A stretch of DNA of 58,543 nt from Candidatus Methylobacter titanis (GTDB lineage: Bacteria > Pseudomonadota > Gammaproteobacteria > Methylococcales > Methylomonadaceae): positions 1 through 58,543 of the forward strand of contig JAQSDX010000016.1 of the NCBI GenBank assembly GCA_029946125.1, written 5' to 3'. The position numbers and the translations under genes are program-made. Position 1 is the first letter of the stretch. Each line of letters begins with the position of its first letter. Below the pieces are notes generated by a model, which did not search any database, was not told where the DNA came from, and worked only from the letters and a program-made list of their open reading frames with translations. Shown in pieces: positions 13,490 to 24,303 of the stretch.

Positions 13490-15865
13490 ATGGTTATTTC
13501 CGCCCTGTCATTTTTAGCCGGACTGCTGTTAGTTCAACAGTATCCGGTGTTGCCGGATATTAAATGGCTGATAGTCGGTGCCGTAGTGGCGGGCATTATT
13601 GCATGGTTGCGTTATTGGCAGTGGCTATTTTTTGTTCTCGGCGTTCTGTGGGCGATAGTGTTTGCCATGCACCGATTGTCTGACCAGTTACCTGAGCAAT
13701 TAGAAGGTGTCGAAGTTCAGGTGACCGGCACTATAGCCGATTTGCCTGAACAGGATGAAAGGCGCGTCCGTTTCGATTTTATCCCCAGGGATGGGGTGTA
13801 TGCCACAAACCCGTCGGGAACGGGTGCGGTGATCCCCAGGGATGGTGTGTATACCGGTAGGGGCGACCGGCCGGTCGCCTTTGAAAACGTGGCAACTATT
13901 CCAGAATCTGCACAACAATTGCCCGCTAAGCTGAGATTGAGTTGGTATTATCCGGATCAACAAATCAAGGCGGGGCAGCATTGGGCTTTTACGGTTAAAT
14001 TGAAGCGCATCCACGGCACCATGAATCCCGGCGGCTTTGATTATGAGCGTTGGCTATTTACCGAAGGTATCGGTGCGACCGGCTATGTGCGTCCGCATCA
14101 AAAGCCTGTTTTGCTGGGTCGCGATTCGGCCTGGAACAGCATTTCCGTCTGGCGGCAAAGTATCGCCGATCAGCTCTCCCTGATTTTGGGCAACAGTCGC
14201 AGTTTTGCGCTGATAAAGGCGCTGACTATTGGTGATGGCAGCAGTCTCATTCAACAGCAATGGGAGGTTTTTCGTAAAACCGGCACCACTCATCTGGTGG
14301 TAATTTCCGGCTCGCATATCGGTCTGGTTGCCGGGCTGGTTTATTTCTTGGTGCTGAAATTGTGGGCCTGGACCGGATGGCTGGCGTGGCCGCCGCAAAG
14401 AGTTGCGGCGGTTTCGGCGGTGCTGGTTGCCGTTTTTTATTCAGGGTTGGCTGGATTTTCCGTGCCTACCCAACGCTCCGTGGTTATGGTGTCTATCGCG
14501 ATGACCGCTATTATTCTGCAACGCAACAGTCGCCCCTTTAATACCTTGGCCATCGCCCTATTCGCGGTGTTGCTATTCGATCCGTTAGCGGTGTTGGCTG
14601 CGGGATTCTGGTTGTCGTTTCTGGCCGTGAGTGTGATTGTTTATGCCGTTTCCGGGCGCCTGGGCAAGTTGGGCTATTTTTGGGGCGCAATAAAAATACA
14701 TTGGGTCACGTCGCTGGGTTTATCGCCGTTGTTATTGCTGTTTTTTCAACAGGTTTCATTGATTGCGCCGCTGGCTAATTTGGTTGCCGTGCCGGTCATC
14801 AGTCTATTGGTTGTGCCCTTATCGCTGCTGGCCGTCATGGTCATGTTTGTTTCATCAATGCTGGCTGGCAAGTTGTTCTATTGGGTAGATCATGTGCTGC
14901 AAGGTTTATGGTGGCTATTGGATTATTTGGCGGAACTCCCGATGGCATCGATAACGCATGCGTCACCCTCGTATTGGGCGTTGTTTTTTGCTGTGCCGGG
15001 GGTGTTGCTGTTACTTGCTCCAATCGGCATTCCGGCGCGGTGGCTAAGCTTGGTGATGTTTTTACCGTTAGTCGTTACTGATACAAAACGACCTGAAACC
15101 GGCGACATCAATATGACTTTGCTGGATGTCGGGCAAGGTTTATCGGTGGTTGTGCAAACGACTGATCATCTGCTGGTTTACGATACCGGTATGAGGTTTT
15201 CTGCTGACAGCGACATGGGGCAACGGGTATTGCTGCCTTTTTTGCATGCGCAAGGCATAGCCAAAATCGACAGCTTAATCATTAGTCATGGCGATAATGA
15301 TCATATCGGCGGCGCGGCATCGTTAATGCACGGCATGGATACTGAAAAGGTGTTGACCAGTGTTCCGCAATTGCTAAGCGAGTATGCGCCAACCGAGTGT
15401 GTGGCCGGGCAATCGTGGCTATGGGATGAAGTCAAATTTACGATGCTGGCGCCGCAGCAGGCGTTTGTGTCGGAAAACGACAATTCCTGTGTGCTAAAAA
15501 TCGAGTCGAAACACGGTACGGTATTGTTGACTGGCGACATTGAAGCTACAGCAGAATCCTGGCTGGTCGAGACTTACGGCGAGGCTTTAAAAGCCAATGT
15601 ATTAGTCGCCCCGCATCACGGCAGCAAAACCTCATCGACAGCCGGTTTTTTGCGTGCGGTACAACCTGACTACGTGTTGATTCCGGCAGGTTATCGCAAT
15701 CAATTCGGTCATCCGCATCAGGATGTTTTAGCCGGCTATCGGCGAGTCAATGCTCTTTGGCTGAGTAGTGCCGACAGCGGGGCGATTGTGGTTAATGTTG
15801 AAAATAACGCTTGGGCAGTGCAGGGGATGCGGCAGACGGAAAGTAAATATTGGAATTTCAGATAA
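13490..15865 (+). CDS. comEC: DNA uptake channel protein ComEC/Rec2
   Basis: A 791-residue ComEC, the inner-membrane channel that imports single-stranded DNA during natural transformation. It has an N-terminal periplasmic OB-like region (to about 200), a multi-helix competence domain (about 225-500) and a C-terminal metallo-beta-lactamase-like domain with HGDNDHIGG, LTGDIEA and PHHGSKTSS, all metal ligands kept. The OB-like region carries an in-frame insertion from 13781 made of a 51-bp repeat unit, part of a second unit, and a REP palindrome. The reading frame stays open through it, so the gene may still be functional. Confidence 0.92.
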   Translation: MVISALSFLAGLLLVQQYPVLPDIKWLIVGAVVAGIIAWLRYWQWLFFVLGVLWAIVFAMHRLSDQLPEQLEGVEVQVTGTIADLPEQDERRVRFDFIPRDGVYATNPSGTGAVIPRDGVYTGRGDRPVAFENVATIPESAQQLPAKLRLSWYYPDQQIKAGQHWAFTVKLKRIHGTMNPGGFDYERWLFTEGIGATGYVRPHQKPVLLGRDSAWNSISVWRQSIADQLSLILGNSRSFALIKALTIGDGSSLIQQQWEVFRKTGTTHLVVISGSHIGLVAGLVYFLVLKLWAWTGWLAWPPQRVAAVSAVLVAVFYSGLAGFSVPTQRSVVMVSIAMTAIILQRNSRPFNTLAIALFAVLLFDPLAVLAAGFWLSFLAVSVIVYAVSGRLGKLGYFWGAIKIHWVTSLGLSPLLLLFFQQVSLIAPLANLVAVPVISLLVVPLSLLAVMVMFVSSMLAGKLFYWVDHVLQGLWWLLDYLAELPMASITHASPSYWALFFAVPGVLLLLAPIGIPARWLSLVMFLPLVVTDTKRPETGDINMTLLDVGQGLSVVVQTTDHLLVYDTGMRFSADSDMGQRVLLPFLHAQGIAKIDSLIISHGDNDHIGGAASLMHGMDTEKVLTSVPQLLSEYAPTECVAGQSWLWDEVKFTMLAPQQAFVSENDNSCVLKIESKHGTVLLTGDIEATAESWLVETYGEALKANVLVAPHHGSKTSSTAGFLRAVQPDYVLIPAGYRNQFGHPHQDVLAGYRRVNALWLSSADSGAIVVNVENNAWAVQGMRQTESKYWNFR
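13781..13880 (+). repeat. In-frame 51-bp repeat unit plus chimeric second unit (in comEC)
   Basis: Unit 1 (13781-13831) is a diverged copy of the 51-bp element also found in sufD and rsmJ. It begins ATCCCCAGGGATGG and encodes IPRDGVYATNPSGTGAV. Its inner stem ACCCGT/ACGGGT is intact while its outer stem is partly decayed. Unit 2 begins at 13832 with the same head (to about 13852) and then switches into a GTAG-headed REP palindrome, so the second hairpin has been replaced by another repeat family. The comEC frame reads through both. Confidence 0.85.
13857..13880 (+). repeat. REP palindrome with GTAG head inside comEC
   Basis: GTAG at 13857-13860 is followed by the perfect 18-base palindrome GGCGACCGGCCGGTCGCC at 13862-13879. 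A GTAG tetranucleotide next to a GC-rich palindrome is the hallmark of REP elements mobilised by RAYT proteins. It is unusual in lying within a coding sequence. Confidence 0.7.
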
Positions 15866-15879
15866 CAATTACCAACGAC

Positions 15880-15914
15880 TTTACTCTGTAATTAAATAGG
15901 ACTAGAATGGTCCT
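15880..15914 (+). promoter_or_regulatory. Probable suf operon promoter with overlapping operator
   Basis: TTTACT (15880-15885) and TAGAAT (15903-15908) make a -35/-10 pair with 17-base spacing. The inverted repeat AGGAC (15898-15902), seven bases, GTCCT (15910-15914) covers the -10 box. That is where an Rrf2-type repressor would bind, and the first gene downstream encodes one, so autoregulation is likely. A GAGGG ribosome site follows at 15922-15926. Confidence 0.6.
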
Positions 15915-15933
15915 CAATCGATGAGGGCAACAT

Positions 15934-16383
15934 ATGTTACGGTTGAGTAAGTTAACTGATTATGCAACGGTCATTTTAAGTTTTATGGCTAAAGACGAAA
16001 TACAAGTGCATGCCGCTATGGAAATAGCGGCGGTAACCGGTATTGCTTTGCCTACGGTCAGTAAAATTCTTAAGATGCTGGTTAACGCTAAGATGTTGAT
16101 TTCTACACGAGGAGCCAAAGGCGGTTATATTTTAGCCAGAATGCCCGAAGAGATTAGTGTTGCGGCGGTTATCAGTGCTCTGGAAGGGCCGATTGCCCTA
16201 ACCGAATGCAGTATTTCCCATCAGAGTTGCGAGCAGGCTTCGGGCTGTGATATTCGGGGGAACTGGGGTTTGATTAACCAGACTATTCATAATGCGTTAG
16301 AGTCGGTGACTTTGGCCGATTTAACTAGACCTGCTGCTGTGCCGGAAGAAGTGATGATTCCGCTCAGCAGTTTATATCGATAG
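15934..16383 (+). CDS. Rrf2 family SUF operon regulator
   Basis: A 149-residue Rrf2/IscR-type transcription factor of the group found at the head of proteobacterial SUF operons. The winged-helix domain (MLRLSKLTDYATVIL to GGYILAR) is followed by a three-cysteine cluster, Cys92, Cys99 and Cys105, that would bind an iron-sulfur cluster. It presumably senses Fe-S supply and represses the operon it heads. It is followed after nine bases by sufB. It lacks the exact cysteine spacing of IscR, as is usual for this subgroup. Confidence 0.92.
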   Translation: MLRLSKLTDYATVILSFMAKDEIQVHAAMEIAAVTGIALPTVSKILKMLVNAKMLISTRGAKGGYILARMPEEISVAAVISALEGPIALTECSISHQSCEQASGCDIRGNWGLINQTIHNALESVTLADLTRPAAVPEEVMIPLSSLYR

Positions 16384-16392
16384 GAAGTTTTT

Positions 16393-17841
16393 ATGTCAGC
16401 AAGCACACAAGAAATCAGTAATTTAATCAGTCAGGGTTACAAACAGGGTTTTGTCACTGAACTGGAAACCGATACTTTCCCGCCGGGACTTGATGAAGCG
16501 GTTATTCACCGCTTATCGAAGGTTAAAAACGAGCCTGAGTTTATGCTGGAATACCGGCTGAAAGCGTTCCGTCATTGGCAGACTATGAAGCCGCCTGAAT
16601 GGGCGTTCGTCAAGTTCGATCCTATCGACTATCAGGCAATCAGTTATTATTCGGCGCCTAAACGCAAGGAAGACGGACCGCAAAGTTTGGATGAGATCGA
16701 TCCGCAAGTATTGGAAGCCTACAAAAAACTGGGTATTCCTCTGGATGAACAGGAGCGTCTGGCCGGTGTTGCGGTCGATGCGGTTTTCGACAGCGTATCG
16801 GTAGCGACTACGTTTAAAGGTAAGCTGAACGATGTTGGCGTTATTTTTTGCCCGATTTCAGAAGCCTTGCGAGAACATCCCGAACTGATCAAACAATATC
16901 TGGGCTCGGTGGTGCCGCCTACCGACAATTATTTTGCCGCTTTAAATGCAGCGGTATTTACCGACGGTTCCTTCGTCTATATTCCCAAAGGCGTGCGTTG
17001 CCCTATGGAATTGTCGACCTATTTCCGGATCAACGCCGCCAACACCGGGCAGTTTGAACGGACCTTGATTATTGCCGATGAAGGCAGTCACGTCAGTTAT
17101 CTGGAAGGTTGCACCGCGCCGATGCGGGATGAAAATCAGCTGCATGCGGCGGTGGTTGAGTTAATTGCGCTGAAAGATGCGACCATCAAATACTCTACCG
17201 TACAAAACTGGTATCCCGGCGATAAAGAGGGCAAAGGCGGTATTTATAACTTTGTAACCAAACGCGCCGATTGCCGGGGAGAGAATTCCAAAGTGTCGTG
17301 GACGCAGGTGGAAACCGGATCGGCCATTACCTGGAAATACCCAAGCTGCATCCTGACCGGCGACAATTCCACCGGCGAGTTTTATTCGGTGGCGCTGACC
17401 AACAATTATCAGCAGGCCGATACCGGCACCAAGATGATCCATATCGGTAAAAACACCAGCAGTACCATTATTTCCAAAGGCATTTCAGCGGGGTTTGCGC
17501 AGAACACTTATCGCGGTTTGGTCAAGGTGTTGAAAAGCGCGGAAAATGCCCGTAACTATACCCAGTGCGATTCGCTGTTAATCGGCGATAAATGCGGCGC
17601 GCATACCTTCCCTTATGTGGAAGTCAGGCAGCCTTCGGCCCAAGTCGAACATGAAGCGACGACCTCCAAGATCAGCGAAGATCAGCTGTTCTTTTGCCAG
17701 CAACGCGGACTGTCGGCGGAAGATGCGGTGTCGATGATCGTTAACGGTTTTTGTAAGGAAGTATTCAGGGAGCTGCCGATGGAGTTTGCGGTGGAGGCTC
17801 AAGCGTTGTTGGGGTTGAGTCTGGAAGGTTCGGTCGGTTAA
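16393..17841 (+). CDS. sufB: Fe-S cluster assembly scaffold SufB
   Basis: A 482-residue SufB, the scaffold subunit of the SufBC2D complex on which Fe-S clusters are built. Landmarks are [20 protein letters not shown], the conserved [17 protein letters not shown] block and the C-terminal [17 protein letters not shown]. Its length and order match the family. In the expected operon sufC should come next, but here about 1.2 kb holding a toxin-antitoxin remnant and an AbiC-like gene separates them. Confidence 0.97.
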
Positions 17842-17858
17842 CGCGTGAGGTTAAGGTT

Positions 17859-18053
17859 ATGGAATTAAAAAGACAATATATTGTCGATGAAGACAACCAC
17901 AAAGTCGCGGTGCAGCTTGATATTGATACCTTCGAGAAAATTGAAGATGTTCTGGAAAATTACGCGTTAGTTCAGCTTATTAATGCGGATGAAAGCGAAA
18001 CACTGAGTATTGAAGAAGCAAAGAAATACTATGCGACTCTGGATAAAGCTTGA
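17859..18053 (+). CDS. RelB-like antitoxin
   Basis: A 64-residue acidic protein resembling small antitoxins paired with RelE/ParE toxins: a short beta N-terminus (YIVDEDNHKVAVQLD) and then helices. It begins 17 bases after sufB and overlaps by one base (TGATG) the start of a RelE-type frame, which is the normal antitoxin-toxin layout. The antitoxin is intact, while its partner carries a stop codon at codon 12. Confidence 0.75.
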   Translation: MELKRQYIVDEDNHKVAVQLDIDTFEKIEDVLENYALVQLINADESETLSIEEAKKYYATLDKA

Positions 18054-18319
18054 TGAAAGTCGAGTACAGTAAAAAATTCTTAAAATAATTGGCAGCGGTT
18101 CCCAGTGATATTCGGTCAAAGATTGAAAGTTTTGTATTTGAAGAATTAGTTTCAACCTCATCCATTTATGAAATCGGGAAGGTTGAAAAAATGAAAGGCT
18201 ATGATGGTTTTTATAAAGTCAGGTTTGGTAATTATCGACTGGGTTTGGTGATTGAAAATGAAATGATTACGGTAAAGACTGTTATGCACAGAAGAGAAAT
18301 TTATAAGTTTTTCCCTTGA
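18053..18319 (+). pseudogene. RelE/ParE family toxin with in-frame TAA
   Basis: From ATG at 18053 the frame reads 11 codons (MKVEYSKKFLK), then TAA at 18086-18088, then continues without shift as LAAVPSDIRSKIE to FFP at 18319. Both sides together form a complete RelE/ParE toxin of 88 codons. The commonest residue at that place in relatives is Gln, so CAA to TAA by one substitution is likely. RelE toxins cleave mRNA on the ribosome, and the family fold would be lost here. A TTG restart at 18089 would lack the first strand. Confidence 0.8.
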
Positions 18320-18335
18320 TTCTATAAGGCCGTTC

Positions 18336-18953
18336 ATGAGTAATTCGAATGAAACAAGTAATGCTGATTTAAAAAACTCCAAGACAGGATGGAGTCTAGC
18401 AATACTTATTGGAATAGGCTTGGTTATTGTCGGTTTCTATTTCTTTAATTTCAGTTCTCATATACTAAAAAATGAGGATTGGTGGAATGTTTTTCAAAAT
18501 CTGTCTAAAGATACTGGAAATTGGGGAACATTCGGCGATTATGTTGGCGGAATACTTAATCCTGTTATTGCCGCATTTGCATTTTATTTGATAAGAGAGA
18601 CTTATAAGTTACAAAAAACGGAATTAAAAGAAACAAGAAAGCTATTAGAAATTTCAACGAAAGCTCAGGAAGCTCAAGTGAAATTAGCCGCATTAACTGT
18701 ACGGCATAATATGAATTTAACAAGGATAAGTGTGCTTGAGTTAGAAAAAATGTCTTTGTTTGAAAGAGAGGCTAAATACGAGCGCCCCGGCAATCTTAAT
18801 GAAATTATGCGAGAACTTGAATCAGGGGTTTATGGAAAACCTAAAGCTTACTCTCAGGAAAAAATGGATACTATTAATTCTGAAATTAAGCGATTAAAAA
18901 GCAAGAATATCGAAATAGAAGAAAAAATAGAAACATTTGACTTGTACGGATGA
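18336..18953 (+). CDS. AbiC-like two-helix membrane protein with coiled coil
   Basis: A 205-residue protein with two hydrophobic segments (about residues 19-41 and 72-88) and a long helical C-terminus likely to form a coiled coil. The segment TFGDYVGGILNPVIAAFAF, then ETYKLQ, resembles the membrane part of putative phage abortive infection proteins (putAbiC). The likeness is by motif only and the function is not established. Its base composition is A/T-richer than the suf genes on both sides, suggesting it came in with the adjacent toxin-antitoxin pair. Confidence 0.6.
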   Translation: MSNSNETSNADLKNSKTGWSLAILIGIGLVIVGFYFFNFSSHILKNEDWWNVFQNLSKDTGNWGTFGDYVGGILNPVIAAFAFYLIRETYKLQKTELKETRKLLEISTKAQEAQVKLAALTVRHNMNLTRISVLELEKMSLFEREAKYERPGNLNEIMRELESGVYGKPKAYSQEKMDTINSEIKRLKSKNIEIEEKIETFDLYG

Positions 18954-18976
18954 AACTTAACAAAAATTTGTAGTCT

Positions 18977-19049
18977 GTAGGATACGCGCCGCGTACCTTT
19001 TGAGGGTTAATAAACCGGAATACTTAATAATAGTACGCAATGCGTACCC
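18977..19049. repeat. Inverted pair of REP elements between AbiC-like gene and sufC
   Basis: A GTAG (18977-18980) precedes the near-palindrome GATACGCGCCGCGTACC (18981-18997). A second palindrome containing GTACGCAATGCGTAC lies at 19033-19047 in the opposite sense. Two REPs in inverted orientation about 35 bases apart is the layout of a REPIN/BIME. It lies just before sufC. Confidence 0.6.
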
Positions 19050-19081
19050 AACGATTTACATTTTAAATTTAGGTAAAACAT

Positions 19082-19831
19082 ATGCTCAGCATAAAAAATC
19101 TTCACGTCAGCGTTGGCGACAAGCCCATTCTTAAAGGCATTAACCTTGAGATTAAGGCAGGTGAAATTCACGCGATTATGGGACCAAACGGCTCCGGTAA
19201 AAGTACCTTGTCGCATGTGTTGTCAGGCAAGGGTGGTTATACCGTGACCGAAGGTTCGGCGACTTATCAGGGTAAAGACTTGCTGGAGATGGCCCCTGAA
19301 ATCAGGGCGCGTGAAGGCGTGTTCTTGGCATTCCAATATCCGGTGGAAATCCCCGGCGTCAGCAATATTTATTTGTTGAAAGCGGCGTTGAATTCTATAC
19401 GCAAACATAACGGTCAGCCTGAAGTCGATGCGATGGATTTTTTAACGCTGGTTAAAGATAAAGTGCGCTTGCTGGAAATGGATGAGAAATTTCTTTACCG
19501 TGCGGTTAACGAAGGCTTCTCCGGCGGCGAAAAGAAACGTAATGAAATCCTGCAAATGGCTATCTTGGAACCTAAATTGTGCATCATGGATGAAACCGAT
19601 TCGGGTCTGGATATAGACGCGTTAAAAATCGTTTCGGAAGGCGTTAATTCCTTGCGTTCACCGGAACGTTCGTTTGTGATGGTCACGCATTACCAGCGCT
19701 TGCTGGATTACATCAAACCGGATTTTGTCCACGTTTTGGCGCACGGCCAGATCGTTAAATCCGGCGGTGCCGATTTGGCATTGGAGTTGGAAGAAAAAGG
19801 TTACGGTTGGGTCGAAGAGGCGGTAGCGTAA
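19082..19831 (+). CDS. sufC: Fe-S cluster assembly ATPase SufC
   Basis: A 249-residue ABC-type ATPase of the SufBC2D complex. Walker [10 protein letters not shown] is near residue 34, the variant signature is [14 protein letters not shown], and the Walker B region is [17 protein letters not shown], as is typical of SufC. Its ATPase activity reshapes the SufBD scaffold. The stop codon shares a base with the sufD start (TAATG). Confidence 0.97.
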
Positions 19832-21255
19832 TGAATACGGCAACAGCAAGCCGTTATGCGGCTGAATATCAAACCATAGCATCGGCATTGCCGGGGCAAA
19901 ATTTGCCCTGGTTGCAGGCGTTAAGAGCTCAGGCATTGACGGAATTCTCAGCGCATGGCTTTCCATCGCCACGTGAAGAAGAATGGCGCTACACCAATGT
20001 GTCCGGCATTGAAAAGAAACTGTTTTCGCCGTCGATAAGTTTAAGCATCGATGAAGTCGATGCCGAGTGGCTGAAATCGGTTCAACTGGAAGATGCCTGG
20101 GTTTTGGTTTTAGTGAACGGCCATTTCTCGGCAGAACTTTCGGTTTTAGACGGTTTGCCTGAAGCTGTTTCAGTCATGAGCATGGCTGATGCCTTGGCAA
20201 AACAGCCGGGCACAGTGGAAAAATATTTAGGTCGGGCCGCCGATCAATCGGAGCACAGTTTTATTGCCTTCAATACCGCGTGGTTTACCGACGGTTTGTT
20301 TGTACATGTACCGGCCAAGCAGGTTTTAGACAGACCGATACAGGTTCTGCATGTTGTGACCGGCGTCGATCAAATGGCGACCACCCGCAATATCATTATT
20401 GCCGACGCTTTGGCCGAAGTTAAGGTGATAGAAACTTTTATCTCCAGGGATGGAGTGTATGCCGAAAACCTGTCGGGAACAGGTTCGGCGATCTCCAGGG
20501 ATGGAGTGTATGCCGCAAGTCTGCCGGGAGCAGACGCGGCGGTTGGTTCAAATAATGCCTATTTAACCGCCGCAGTTACCGAGGTTTTTGTCGGGCAGAA
20601 TGCCGATGTGACGCTGTATAAGCTACAAAGCGAGTCTGAAAAAGCCTATCATTTTGGCGGCAGTTATATTAAACAGGCTCGGGACGCGCGCTTTACCCAT
20701 CACAATTTTGCCTTTGGCGGCATGCTGGCGCGCAGCGATATTCATGTCGATCTGGATCATGCGTCGGCGTGCGAACTGAATGGTTTGTACTTGGGCGTCA
20801 AGCGTCAGCATATCGACAACCATACCCGCATCAATCACTTGAAACCTTATGCAATCAGCCGCGAGCTGTACAAAGGCGTGCTGGATGACAGGGCCAGAGG
20901 CGTGTTTCAGGGGCGGGTGATTGTGGCTGAAGACGCCCAAAAAACCGATTCGCAAATGAATAACCGCAACTTGCTGTTATCGGATGATGCCGAAGTGGAT
21001 ACCAAGCCGCAGTTGGAAATTTATGCCGATGATGTAAAATGCGGACATGGTGTGACGGTCGGGCAACTGGATGAAAAATCCATTTTTTACCTGCAATCGC
21101 GCTGCGTTGACGAAGAAACCGCGCGTAACATGTTGACTTTTGCCTTTGCCAACGAAATGGTCGATAAGATCAAGATTAAAAGTTTGCACGACAGGGTTTT
21201 AGAACAGGTATTGGCGCGCTTCCCGCAGCAAGGCGTCAACAAGGAATGGTTATGA
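19831..21255 (+). CDS. sufD: Fe-S cluster assembly protein SufD with repeat-derived insertion
   Basis: A 474-residue SufD, the SufB-like partner of the SufBC2D scaffold. The N-terminus has the family EEEWRYTNVSGIEK block and the C-terminus has GVTVGQLDEKSIFYLQSRCVDEETARNML. The start is ATG at 19831, overlapping the sufC stop. Residues 204-237 are a 34-residue insertion encoded by two tandem 51-bp repeat units. Removing it restores the continuous motif ETF-VGSNNAYLTAAVTEV, as expected in the beta-helix core. The protein must tolerate this extra loop if the SUF system is active. Confidence 0.95.
   Translation: MNTATASRYAAEYQTIASALPGQNLPWLQALRAQALTEFSAHGFPSPREEEWRYTNVSGIEKKLFSPSISLSIDEVDAEWLKSVQLEDAWVLVLVNGHFSAELSVLDGLPEAVSVMSMADALAKQPGTVEKYLGRAADQSEHSFIAFNTAWFTDGLFVHVPAKQVLDRPIQVLHVVTGVDQMATTRNIIIADALAEVKVIETFISRDGVYAENLSGTGSAISRDGVYAASLPGADAAVGSNNAYLTAAVTEVFVGQNADVTLYKLQSESEKAYHFGGSYIKQARDARFTHHNFAFGGMLARSDIHVDLDHASACELNGLYLGVKRQHIDNHTRINHLKPYAISRELYKGVLDDRARGVFQGRVIVAEDAQKTDSQMNNRNLLLSDDAEVDTKPQLEIYADDVKCGHGVTVGQLDEKSIFYLQSRCVDEETARNMLTFAFANEMVDKIKIKSLHDRVLEQVLARFPQQGVNKEWL
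20440..20541 (+). repeat. Tandem pair of 51-bp in-frame palindromic units (in sufD)
   Basis: Unit 1 is 20440-20490 and unit 2 is 20491-20541, exactly 51 bases each and joined head to tail. Both begin ATCTCCAGGGATGGAGTG. Each folds as an outer 5-bp stem, an AA bulge, an inner 6-bp stem and a CGGGA loop. Outer/inner arms are GCCGA/TCGGC and ACCTGT/ACAGGT in unit 1, and GCCGC/GCGGC and GTCTGC/GCAGAC in unit 2. All stem changes between units are compensated. Neither unit has a stop codon in any of six frames. Confidence 0.92.
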
Positions 21256-22478
21256 CGACAAGTTTAGACATCAATAAAATTCGCGCCGATTTTCCGATAT
21301 TGGCTGAACTTATACGCAACAAGCCGCTGGTTTATCTGGATAATGCGGCCACCTGCCAAAAACCGCAGGCGGTTATCGACAGCATCGTACATTTATACAG
21401 CCATGATTATGCCAATGTGCATCGCGGCGTACATACCTTAAGCATACGCTCTACCGACAAGTATGAAGGCGCACGCACCAAGGTTAAAGACTTCATTAAT
21501 GCGGCCAGCGAAAAAGAGATTATTTTTGTCAGAGGGGCTACCGAAGCCATCAATCTGGTCGCGCAGACTTACGGCAAAGCCAATATCAAAGCCGGTGATG
21601 AGATTTTGATTACCGCAATGGAGCATCATTCCAATATCGTGCCCTGGCAAATGCTGTGTGAGCAGACCGGCGCAATCTTAAAAGTTGCACCAATTAATCT
21701 GCAAGGCGAGTTGATCTATGCTGAGTTTGAAAAGCTGATCAGCGATAAAACCAAGTTGGTTTCAGTCGTGCACATGTCCAACGCGTTGGGCACGATTAAT
21801 CCGGTTAAAAAAATTATCGCAGCGGCTCATGCCAAAGGCATTCCGGTGTTGCTGGATGGCGCACAGGCTATTCCGCACATGACGGTGGACGTGCAGGATC
21901 TGGATTGCGATTTTTATGTTTTCTCAGGTCATAAGCTGTATGGCCCGGCTGGCGTGGGCGTGTTATACGGCAAACAGGCTTTGCTGGAAGCTATGCCTCC
22001 GTATCAGGGCGGCGGGGATATGATCCGCAAGGTCACTTTTGAAGAAACCGAATATAATACGCTGCCTTACAAGTTTGAGGCAGGTACGCCCAGTATTGCC
22101 GATGTAGTCGGTTTGGGTGCGGCCATTGATTATCTGAATGCCATCGGCATGGATAATATCGCCGCTTATGAAGCCGAGTTGCTGGCCTATGCCACTGAAA
22201 AAGCTAAGCAAATTAAAGGCCTGCGAATTATCGGCGAGGCGGAGCATAAAGGTGCGATTTTGTCTTTTGTGTTGGATAAGATACACCCCCATGATATTGG
22301 CACCATGCTGGATAGCTTGGGGATTGCGATCAGGGCAGGGCATCATTGCGCGATGCCGGTCATGGACTTTTTTGAAGTCCCCGCGACGGCAAGAGCATCC
22401 TTTGCCATGTATAACACCAAAGCAGAAATTGACGTTTTAATGAAAGGCATAGAGTCCTTGATTGAGGTATTTGGCTAA
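21252..22478 (+). CDS. sufS: Cysteine desulfurase SufS
   Basis: A 408-residue PLP-dependent group II cysteine desulfurase, which supplies persulfide sulfur from cysteine for cluster assembly. The PLP lysine is in FSGHKLYGP, preceded by the MEHHSNIVPW block, and the active-site Cys is in RAGHHCAMP. The start is taken as ATG at 21252, overlapping the sufD stop and six bases after an AAGGA; an ATG two codons earlier has no spacing for it. SufU encoded downstream is its likely sulfur acceptor. Confidence 0.96.
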   Translation: MTTSLDINKIRADFPILAELIRNKPLVYLDNAATCQKPQAVIDSIVHLYSHDYANVHRGVHTLSIRSTDKYEGARTKVKDFINAASEKEIIFVRGATEAINLVAQTYGKANIKAGDEILITAMEHHSNIVPWQMLCEQTGAILKVAPINLQGELIYAEFEKLISDKTKLVSVVHMSNALGTINPVKKIIAAAHAKGIPVLLDGAQAIPHMTVDVQDLDCDFYVFSGHKLYGPAGVGVLYGKQALLEAMPPYQGGGDMIRKVTFEETEYNTLPYKFEAGTPSIADVVGLGAAIDYLNAIGMDNIAAYEAELLAYATEKAKQIKGLRIIGEAEHKGAILSFVLDKIHPHDIGTMLDSLGIAIRAGHHCAMPVMDFFEVPATARASFAMYNTKAEIDVLMKGIESLIEVFG

Positions 22479-22708
22479 TGTATTACACTATCAAAGCATA
22501 TATTCATACAGGCGAAGAATCAGGCTTTGTTGCTGAATGTGTCGAATTACCTATTGTTACTCAAGGCCAAACACTCGATGAAGTGACGTTAAATTTGCGT
22601 GAAGCGATAAGCTTGCATTTGGAAGGTGAAGATTTAGCCGCCTTAGGATTTGCGCCTAATCCACCCATTGTAGTGAATTATGAAATGGAATCTGTGTGCC
22701 AAAGTTAA
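22478..22708 (+). CDS. HicB-like antitoxin
   Basis: A 76-residue HicB-type protein with the partial RNase H-like fold of the family: YYTIKAYIHTGEESGFVAECVELPIVTQGQTLDEVTLNLREAI. It overlaps the sufS stop by one base (TAATG) and overlaps the following HicA frame by 13 bases. The antitoxin is intact, but its HicA partner has a nonsense codon. HicA is an mRNA interferase that HicB neutralises. Confidence 0.85.
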   Translation: MYYTIKAYIHTGEESGFVAECVELPIVTQGQTLDEVTLNLREAISLHLEGEDLAALGFAPNPPIVVNYEMESVCQS

Positions 22709-22941
22709 AGCGCTTAACAGCTAAACAAGTATTAGCTATTTTGATGCGGTTTGATTTTGTTATTGTTTCTCAGCGAGGTAGTCATATTAAATTGGAGCGA
22801 ATCGTTTATAGTTAAAAACAAATTCTGACCATTCCGAATCATACCCAATTGGATACCGGAACCTGTAAAGCCATTATGCGCCAAGCAAGCCGCCGCTATA
22901 TCAGTTCAGAAGAACTTTATCCCCATTTCTATACTGAATAA
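22696..22941 (+). pseudogene. HicA-like toxin with in-frame TAA
   Basis: From GTG at 22696 the frame reads as a HicA toxin: MPKLKRLTAKQVLAILMRF, then QRGSHIKLERIVYS, then TAA at 22813-22815, then KQILTIPNHTQLDTGT and ASRRYISSEELYPHFYTE to the TAA at 22939-22941. The catalytic GSH motif (codons 28-30) is before the stop, but the second half of the double-stranded-RNA-binding-like fold is cut off. Relatives have Gly-Glu or similar at that turn, so one substitution explains it. A mutation, not a frameshift, is implied. Confidence 0.82.
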
Positions 22942-22959
22942 CCACGCAAGAGAATAAAT

Positions 22960-23412
22960 ATGTTTGATGATTTACGCGACCTCTATCAGGAGGTTATTTT
23001 CGACCACAACCGTAACCCGCGCAATTTCCACGTCATGGAAAATGCCGACCGGAAAGTGGAAGGATTCAATCCGCTGTGCGGCGACCGTCTGACCTTATAT
23101 TTGAAAATGGACGGCGATAGAATTACCGATGCCAGTTTTCAGGGTTCAGGTTGCGCTATTTCGACGGCCTCGGTTTCGTTAATGACCGAGATAGTCAAAG
23201 GCAAAACCGAACAGGAAGCCGAGAATTTGTTTAAAAAATTCCATGAAATGACCACAGGTAAAGATGAAAACTTTAATCTTGAAGCGGTCGGCAAACTGGC
23301 GGTATTAGCCGGAGTTCGGGAATATCCGGCGCGGGTTAAATGTGCGACCTTGGCCTGGCACACGCTGGATGCCGCGTTGAAAAATGAACAAAAATCGATT
23401 TCGACAGAGTAA
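22960..23412 (+). CDS. sufU: Fe-S cluster assembly protein SufU
   Basis: A 150-residue SufU-type (IscU-like) protein. Cys40 with Asp42 in PLCGDRL, Cys65 in GSGCAIS and Cys128 in RVKCATLAW are the zinc/sulfur ligands, and the SufU-specific insertion after the second Cys is present. SufU acts as the zinc-dependent sulfur acceptor of SufS. It is usual in Firmicutes but is also found in proteobacterial SUF operons headed by an Rrf2 gene, as here. It is followed by rsmJ after three bases. Confidence 0.93.
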   Translation: MFDDLRDLYQEVIFDHNRNPRNFHVMENADRKVEGFNPLCGDRLTLYLKMDGDRITDASFQGSGCAISTASVSLMTEIVKGKTEQEAENLFKKFHEMTTGKDENFNLEAVGKLAVLAGVREYPARVKCATLAWHTLDAALKNEQKSISTE

Positions 23413-23415
23413 TCA

Positions 23416-24303
23416 TTGAGTACGAAAATTTCATCGCAAAAACACGCCGGCGCCGCGCCTGTTCCCGACAGGCTTGCGGCATGCACACCATCCCTGGCGA
23501 TTGCCGCGCCTGCTCCAGACAGGCTTGCGGCATACACACCATCCCTGGCGATAAAGCTGGCCGTACTTTATCAGGGGCAGGGCGATGTTCTTCCGTTCCA
23601 ACAGTTGGCAGAAAGATTGCACGTTCCTTTGTACCAGTCGCTTAGCGAAGATAGCCCAGAAGATTTTTTTTTAAGCTGGCGTGACGGCTGTTTAAAACTG
23701 CTTGACAGAGAGTTGCTTAAAAAAGGCGGTTTGGTCGTCGATATAGAGCCGCGTAATGGTGAGCAGCGATCATGGCCTGCACCGAAAGACGGCGCTTTAG
23801 CTCAGGCGCTTGGCCGCAAAACCAGAACCGTTATCGATGCGACTACCGGCTGGGCTCAGGACAGCTTGCATATCTTTCGCATGGGCTATGAGCTACTGTG
23901 TATCGAACGTTCTCCCGTCATGGCGGAACTGCTGACAGACGGCTTTGCCCGACTGGCGCAACTGGACTGGATGCTGCGGCTTAATCTTGAGCCTCCCAGC
24001 TTGCAGCAGGGTAATGCCATCGAGCTGTTGGCCGAATTGGAAAGCGCTCCCGATTGCATTTATCTTGACCCTATGTTTCCGCCCAAACGCAAAAAATCGG
24101 CACTGCCCAAAAAATCGATGATGGTATTGCGCGATCTGCTGGGCGACGATCAGGATAAGGAGCAACTTTTTGAGGCCGCCTTAAAAGCCGCCGGGAAGCG
24201 CGTGGTGGTCAAAAGCCCCGATTATGCCGAACCTTTGGGCGGCAAGCCCAGTCAAAGTTTTCAGGGTAAGTTGTTGCGTTATGATGTTTATTTGAAAGGA
24301 TAA
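23416..24303 (+). CDS. rsmJ: 16S rRNA m2G1516 methyltransferase RsmJ with N-terminal repeat insertion
   Basis: A 295-residue RsmJ, against about 250 in E. coli. The catalytic part is typical: VVDIEPRNGEQRSW, the SAM site VIDATTGWAQDS, the NPPY-like CIYLDPMFPPKRKKSA and VVVKSPDYAEPL. The start is TTG at 23416, three bases after sufU; no ATG or GTG is available upstream of the conserved strand KLAVLYQ. Residues 13-46 come from two antisense-oriented 51-bp repeat units, giving Ala/Pro-rich PDRLAAYTPSLAI segments. The insertion lies before the first beta strand, where it could be tolerated. Confidence 0.9.
   Translation: MSTKISSQKHAGAAPVPDRLAACTPSLAIAAPAPDRLAAYTPSLAIKLAVLYQGQGDVLPFQQLAERLHVPLYQSLSEDSPEDFFLSWRDGCLKLLDRELLKKGGLVVDIEPRNGEQRSWPAPKDGALAQALGRKTRTVIDATTGWAQDSLHIFRMGYELLCIERSPVMAELLTDGFARLAQLDWMLRLNLEPPSLQQGNAIELLAELESAPDCIYLDPMFPPKRKKSALPKKSMMVLRDLLGDDQDKEQLFEAALKAAGKRVVVKSPDYAEPLGGKPSQSFQGKLLRYDVYLKG
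23451..23552 (-). repeat. Tandem pair of 51-bp in-frame palindromic units, antisense (in rsmJ)
   Basis: Read on the minus strand, unit A is 23552-23502 and unit B is 23501-23451, both beginning ATCGCCAGGGATGGTGTG. Stems: both have outer GCCGC/GCGGC; inner GCCTGT/ACAGGC in B, and GCCTGT/GCAGGC with one T-G wobble in A; loops CGGGA (B) and CTGGA (A). Neither has a stop in any frame, so rsmJ reads through on the opposite strand. Relative to rsmJ the element is reversed, unlike the copies in sufD and comEC. Confidence 0.92.

Follow-up and report, generated by a model that had tools for sequence, protein, structure and literature searches.

In this work, we present the analysis of a 51-bp palindromic element which interrupts the comEC, sufD and rsmJ genes in a 58,543-nucleotide stretch of Candidatus Methylobacter titanis (contig JAQSDX010000016.1; the whole stretch is called the window). 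The units probably belong to a family of short non-autonomous palindromic mobile elements, similar to the repetitive extragenic palindromes (REPs) and the Rickettsia palindromic elements (RPEs) and adapted to coding sequence. A stronger statement, to which we give slightly less than even credence, is that the family is a lineage of transposable elements which evolved for life inside protein genes, with a length of whole codons, units that often lack stop codons in every frame, insertion at T|NNNG, clean gains and possibly also clean losses at single sites, and an intergenic origin. In-frame palindromic elements are best known from the obligate intracellular Rickettsia, where the aligned sites are common to relatives. 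Here the same lifestyle is met in free-living methanotrophs with named cultured strains; many species have empty sites, and a sister lineage found mainly between genes offers a contrast. This makes testable the adaptation of selfish DNA to translation, the tolerance of SufD, UvrD and GlnE to a 17-residue insert, and what moves the element.

The original prediction, made from the window sequence, had placed one and the same repeat in all three genes, and units were found at each of these places. The five intact window units are 84–98% identical to the consensus, and the head pattern (up to 3 mismatches) has 6 matches in the window and 0 in 100 shuffles. A genome without other copies had been named as an argument against mobility; the 3.5-Mb assembly of Candidatus Methylobacter titanis, to which all counts for the source genome refer, has 62 heads (at most 2 mismatches), with 0 in the reversed-pattern control. 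In it, 42 arrays had enough flank, with one to four units each. A named scan added at least 109 stretches, mostly from Methylobacter, and because these overlap with the genus genomes, the arrays are not independent. From the array counts 8 loci of other hosts were dropped beforehand, and a few loci of other Methylococcales genera were kept; one Sedimenticola array (L188), scored genic, is included, and without it the counts given below become 101/111 for the other arrays and 139 genic. The set of 212 distinct units (source genome and named loci, a few from other hosts) and the percentages for unit positions were counted before any locus was dropped.

The view of the repeat as a mobile element specialised for coding sequence is supported by empty sites and by a private glnE insertion, in which mobility is seen only as presence or absence between species. 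Read side by side, filled and empty alleles differ by 51n bases, without target duplication. In the 30-row sufD alignment, one or two units follow ACTTTT or its variant in six species, a unit stands 12 bases beyond this site in two more, and no unit is present in the remaining 22 rows, of which 13 belong to the genus. At the rsmJ site, the carrier L291 is 51 bases longer than the empty species L292; it has the element between TTTT and CCGG on the element's own strand, with no duplication. The glnE copy at amino acid 103 is private to the source genome, the site being empty in 8/8 relatives, and the copy at amino acid 704 is present also in G007 and G009 and absent from six other Methylobacter genomes and one more distant genome; no target duplication accompanies either. 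Filled and empty alleles were found as well in pilB and in a heptosyltransferase gene. Separately, glnE of G008 (L351) has, some 50 bases ahead of the amino acid 103 site, a different insert, whose length of 24 bases is a multiple of three.

The comparison of orthologues proposed with the prediction found other species without the residues, and an ordinary protein repeat was rejected on the empty sites in sufD, rsmJ and glnE. Ordinary protein sequence, or a tandem repeat born of slippage, would account for the fact that neighbouring units are more alike than random pairs; we consider it exceedingly improbable, as the same DNA recurs in both orientations in unrelated genes, and as its stems covary. 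The inner stem is shared by neighbouring units in 19/64 cases (6% expected). Of the 42 decided arrays, 28 have a first unit closer to the consensus than their last one (P 0.04). Both observations fit new units arriving at the T side together with local duplication, and tandem arrays may grow in this way, by repeated insertion at the same point plus duplication in place.

The target is short and fixes the orientation. In the 152 arrays not followed by unit-like sequence on the 3′ side, T stands directly 5′ of the element in 99%, usually as part of a T-run, and G at +4 downstream in 114 (P ~5e-38 vs 0.25). The corresponding counts in the source genome are 41/42 for T at -1 and 34/42 for G at +4. 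The empty alleles read in sufD, rsmJ and glnE already have this T and this G for the most part. The TTTAT first noted before the insertion points is made of the host T-run and the element's own AT and had to be replaced by the above rule, T directly before and G at +4.

Each 51-bp unit holds two hairpins, a small one in the head (positions 3–7 paired with 12–16, GGGA loop) and a long bulged one with an outer 5-bp stem, a 2-nt bulge, an inner 6-bp stem and a 5-nt loop. The long hairpin is the fold that had been predicted; the one in the head had been missed. A near-invariant unpaired TGTAT precedes the long hairpin, and positions 18–21 at its foot are G, T, A and T in 99, 97, 99 and 98%, respectively. 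Four of the 5 intact window units beat most of their own shuffles in folding, and comEC unit 1 folds no better than most of its shuffles (z -0.44). Across an alignment of 64 units, 95.5% of the cells assigned to stems can pair. The covariation score of 0.341, compared with 0.146 for shuffled alignments, was reached by 0/500 shuffles and fell to at most 0.085 when slid, so the claimed covariation is real. Cells with two-sided changes numbered 105 vs 30 in shuffles; a weaker measure, pairs with any two-sided change, gave 8 vs 6.1 and was reached by 47/500 shuffles. Positions 32 and 42 pair in 89% of the 212 distinct units and in 42% after shuffling.

Conserved pairing could also mean that the hairpins were domesticated, that is kept for a host function and not through spread. 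Pairwise comparison of 13 units at the comEC site agrees with this, as 199 two-sided pair changes stand beside 70 one-sided and 24 broken ones, the comparisons being non-independent. We nevertheless judge domestication improbable, since the copies are scattered over unrelated genes, strands and positions and the rsmJ units drift, with 0 two-sided, 35 one-sided and 35 broken pair changes among 8 units compared. Moreover, copy replacement or palindrome-templated repair also gives two-sided changes: in sufD unit 1 the sole differences between G000 and G015 are three two-sided pair changes, a pattern that could come from exchange of a whole unit, from re-insertion or from palindrome-templated repair.

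Placement in genes was judged by a codon-score test, which asks for an array inside one coding-like open reading frame (ORF), and by a score-free test demanding 30 codons on either side. By the former, 38/42 source-genome arrays and 102/112 others are genic, compared with 79–80% of equal-length random windows and 85–87% of random points, and four source-genome arrays lie outside genes. Pfam domains were found in 34/35 source-genome host ORFs. Hosts, with functions inferred from Pfam and PDB matches, include valyl-tRNA synthetase (valS), pyruvate dehydrogenase E1 (aceE), a dihydrolipoamide-dehydrogenase-like protein, RNase R, GlnE (twice), PilB-type ATPase, RecO, HolC, aconitase B, PurH, aspartate carbamoyltransferase, squalene-hopene cyclase, Sua5 and UvrD. 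In UvrD, three units fall in an alignment gap between residues 522 and 523 of chain 2is1_A.

Length and phase are consistent with units that are read through. All 71 tandem spacings in Methylobacter and its kin are multiples of three (51 in 69 cases, 54 in 2), which, with the 51n difference of empty alleles, bears out the proposed 51-base unit that keeps the frame. The length is not wholly fixed, as SV96 and OWC-G53F have four single copies of other sizes, three with 50 nt and one with 52, none of which lies in an open frame. The 140 genic arrays occupy frames +0, -0, -2, +1, -1 and +2 in 68, 34, 30, 4, 4 and 0 cases, whereas target sites in the same genes lead one to expect about 34, 30, 14, 27, 25 and 10; the source genome gives 17, 8, 9, 2, 2 and 0 (skew P ~0.0005). 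Insertion into either strand, as predicted, is seen, but "any phase" was too strong, because the first three frames hold 132 of the 140 arrays and +2 none. The five intact window units contain no stop codon in any of six frames, as the prediction had it for the intact units it counted, and comEC unit 2 (13832–13882) has TAG in one frame. Across the family this property is limited to 103/212 distinct units, still far above the 5.5–5.9% of two nulls. As the disfavoured frames are open in most units too (75–84%), selection seems to concern the peptide as well as stops. Because the frame runs through conserved genes, the units are presumably translated and would add 17n residues. Were the insert removed from RNA or skipped by the ribosome, as is the case with mitochondrial byp elements, frame would be irrelevant; the stable hairpin would suit such a process, which we hold very improbable, since it needs neither spacings in multiples of three nor the strongly uneven use of frames.

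A sister lineage behaves differently. In Alteromonadaceae bacterium Bs31 the covariance model has 49 matches at E <= 0.001. Twenty regions were fetched, of which one with N's (L439) was excluded, and the 19 arrays were judged by the score-free test only, since the codon score had been trained on another genome. In ORFs lie 2/19, compared with 65% of random windows. The spacings are 50 (14 times), 51 (12), 52 (3) and 57 (once, across a run of N), and many arrays in the fetched regions begin after TT. Because these sister elements live mainly between genes and vary in unit length, the length and sequence of the methanotroph unit would appear to have been selected for tolerance in coding DNA. The simplest history, whose direction we infer, would lead from an ancestor inserting behind T-runs between genes to a methanotroph form fitted to coding DNA.

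Several results weigh against the reading of the family as mobile and adapted to coding sequence. No movement between strains was found. The score-free test counts 94/133 arrays as genic vs 73% of random windows (29/41 vs 72% in the source genome), which is no enrichment, and for this reason we claim no preference; the safe claim is that genes are not avoided. An AlphaFold model of SufD had a mean predicted local distance difference test score (pLDDT) of 36.6 and was discarded. The comEC site is old, being filled in most of the genus and in other genera, and degenerate in G004. Concerning the enzyme, there was no unit in the fetched flanks of 30 PF01797 loci (one best hit per genome, 18 in the genus), where two weak matches at up to 5 mismatches were judged not to be units, and no PF01797 hit in a Sedimenticola metagenome-assembled genome (MAG) with 12 model matches. 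No replication-strand bias was seen in the two cleaner tests, on SV96 (10/20; one model match per array, 20 of 38) and on the source genome (18/33).

The age of the comEC site agrees with the view that the family is a relic, which spread in the past, is now immobile and owes its patchiness to loss and gene exchange between Methylobacter species. A head is recognisable in 17 of the 30 comEC loci compared and in none of the rest, and the site has shrunken in-frame remnants and degenerate units. The site A of sufD requires a minimum of 4 or 5 changes on trees of sufD and 6 on a tree of four genes. Parts of these trees are weakly supported, and such counts can be inflated for this reason and because genes have been exchanged. 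We still find a relic unlikely in view of these changes, of the amino acid 103 site in glnE, filled in the source genome alone, and of the two species with a sufD unit 12 bases away.

For a mobile family, our first guess at the mobilising enzyme, a tentative one, would be a Y1/HUH single-strand transposase (TnpA-REP or IS200/IS605-like) acting in trans. It is suggested by the hairpins, the short target, the lack of duplication and the GTAT left unpaired at the base of the hairpin, which is the place of the tag in REPs. In the source genome, the 5 of 7 PF01797 matches listed are all on contigs without units. A lagging-strand mechanism predicts a strand bias, and a pooled, non-independent set leans to one replication strand (81/129, P 0.005). 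Just as possible, in our estimate, is another route: RNA-guided or reverse-transcribed, or served by some other transposase or recombinase with a T|NNNG target. The lack of bias in SV96 and the source genome and of units beside the 30 Y1 loci examined speaks for it, as does G at +4, which to our knowledge is no known feature of IS200/IS605 targets. Most DDE elements duplicate their target, however, and no duplication occurs in rsmJ and glnE; nor was a candidate gene found for such a route.

The likeness to RPEs drawn in the original prediction is apt as far as descriptions can be compared: the lifestyle is the same, the length and the host are others. In passages of PMC3767692 and PMC10969869, RPEs are described as palindromic repeats of 100–150 bp from Rickettsia and Wolbachia, which lie in frame inside unrelated protein genes and are absent from non-rickettsial orthologues; the rickettsial orthologues aligned in the passages of PMC3767692 are filled at the same locus. 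The Methylobacter unit likewise sits in frame inside protein genes, but it is 51 bp long, often tandem, carried by free-living gammaproteobacteria, and has a defined target and an insertion private to one genome. Palindromes inside genes were already known as a class, because excerpts of PMC3733652 report some REPs inside ORFs, often as dimers or groups, including UvrD/REP helicase genes. REPs, in the part of PMC6006769 concerned, are short palindromes whose hairpin bears an unpaired tag at its base, the long hairpins having a bulge of 1–3 nt. The basal stem, 2-nt bulge and distal stem of the Methylobacter unit resemble those of GTAG/CGTC REPs, whereas its hairpin foot is GTAT and not GT[AG]G or CGTC, two hairpins are present per 51 bp, units are repeated head to tail, they are not mainly extragenic, and no Y1 gene (REP-associated tyrosine transposase, RAYT) flanks them at the 30 loci.

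Derivatives of IS200/IS605 come near in another respect: in the same part of PMC6006769 these elements insert 3′ of a short target without duplication and have hairpins near their ends. Our element also lies 3′ of a short, if loose, target (T, with G at +4 in 75%) without duplication; it differs in the additional G at +4 and in the absence of a linked Y1 gene (30 loci). As to orientation, the cleaner tests showed no strand bias and the pooled set leans to one strand. Miniature inverted-repeat transposable elements (MITEs) are normally intergenic according to passages of PMC10969869. The Methylobacter unit, similarly small, dispersed and without a gene of its own, differs from them by the lack of target duplication (rsmJ, glnE) and by ends which, on inspection, are not mutual inverted repeats.

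The element is widespread in the genus and sporadic beyond it. A head with at most 1 mismatch occurs in 22/23 genus genomes, the exception being G004, whose comEC units are degenerate, in 3/14 other genera of the family and in 0/24 genomes from other families of the order. Other hosts among the matches listed are Methyloglobulus, Methylovulum-labelled MAGs, Alteromonadaceae bacterium Bs31, Sedimenticola and further Gammaproteobacteria. In a class-wide sample with strict filters and about 21 candidates scored per genome, the covariance model matched (E <= 1e-6) in 5/274 genomes, including the source genome. Viral contigs searched with the exact head pattern gave no carrier, and neither did plasmids or phages with one 102-base query each. 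No family in Rfam, which possibly does not include RPEs, matches the unit, the open-licence literature yielded no report of the element in Methylobacter, and stretches of the unit sequence matched only papers with unrelated titles. By eye, five loci of Sedimenticola and other Gammaproteobacteria (L117, L132, L144, L188 and L260) have a copy directly behind the T-run of a terminator-like hairpin; other copies there are not behind such hairpins.

A second, related 51-bp subfamily, about CGACTGCCAGGGATGGCGGAAGTGTCGCAATCGGTAGGGAACCGATGCGACC (L443–L472, L403–L422), occurs in 14 of the 15 Methylobacter genomes searched, not in G004. It is tandem at 51 bp, with 22/34 arrays in ORFs vs 79% of random windows. 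A third variant of about 50 nt, starting after CTTCTG and not clearly genic, was seen in SV96 and OWC-G53F (L405, L408, L413, L414 and L416).

Coordinates of the units in the window and of their host genes
Feature	Position	Strand	Remarks
comEC unit 1, intact	13781..13831	+	frame +0, IPRDGVYATNPSGTGAV; frame open throughout gene
comEC unit 2, degenerate	13832..13882	+	head intact, right half replaced by GTAG-type palindrome, core 13862-13879
sufD unit 1	20440..20490	+	frame +0, ISRDGVYAENLSGTGSA
sufD unit 2, tandem	20491..20541	+	frame +0, ISRDGVYAASLPGADAA
rsmJ unit 1 (first on element strand)	23502..23552	-	antisense, frame -2
rsmJ unit 2, tandem	23451..23501	-	antisense, frame -2
Host gene comEC	13490..15865	+	791 aa; Competence, DUF4131 and Lactamase_B domains
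Host gene sufD	19831..21255	+	474 aa from ATG; insert between SufBD_N and SUFBD_core
Host gene rsmJ	23416..24303	+	295 aa; PF04445; insert 11 codons past TTG start

The GTAG-type palindrome GTAGGGGCGACCGGCCGGTCGCC, at 13857–13879 of the window within the right half of the unit, is found at about the same point of the unit in comEC units of several species and at other loci (L177, L310 and L348), and 7 further copies were seen in the scanned loci. Elsewhere in the window, 22479–22943 holds, by eye, a short frame like that of an antitoxin, which we take to be of the HicB type, followed by an apparently disrupted partner frame. Two longer dispersed repeats, of about 185 and 232 bp, lie at 2515–2699 and 9006–9238 of L035, with several copies in the source genome and copies in G002 or G005.

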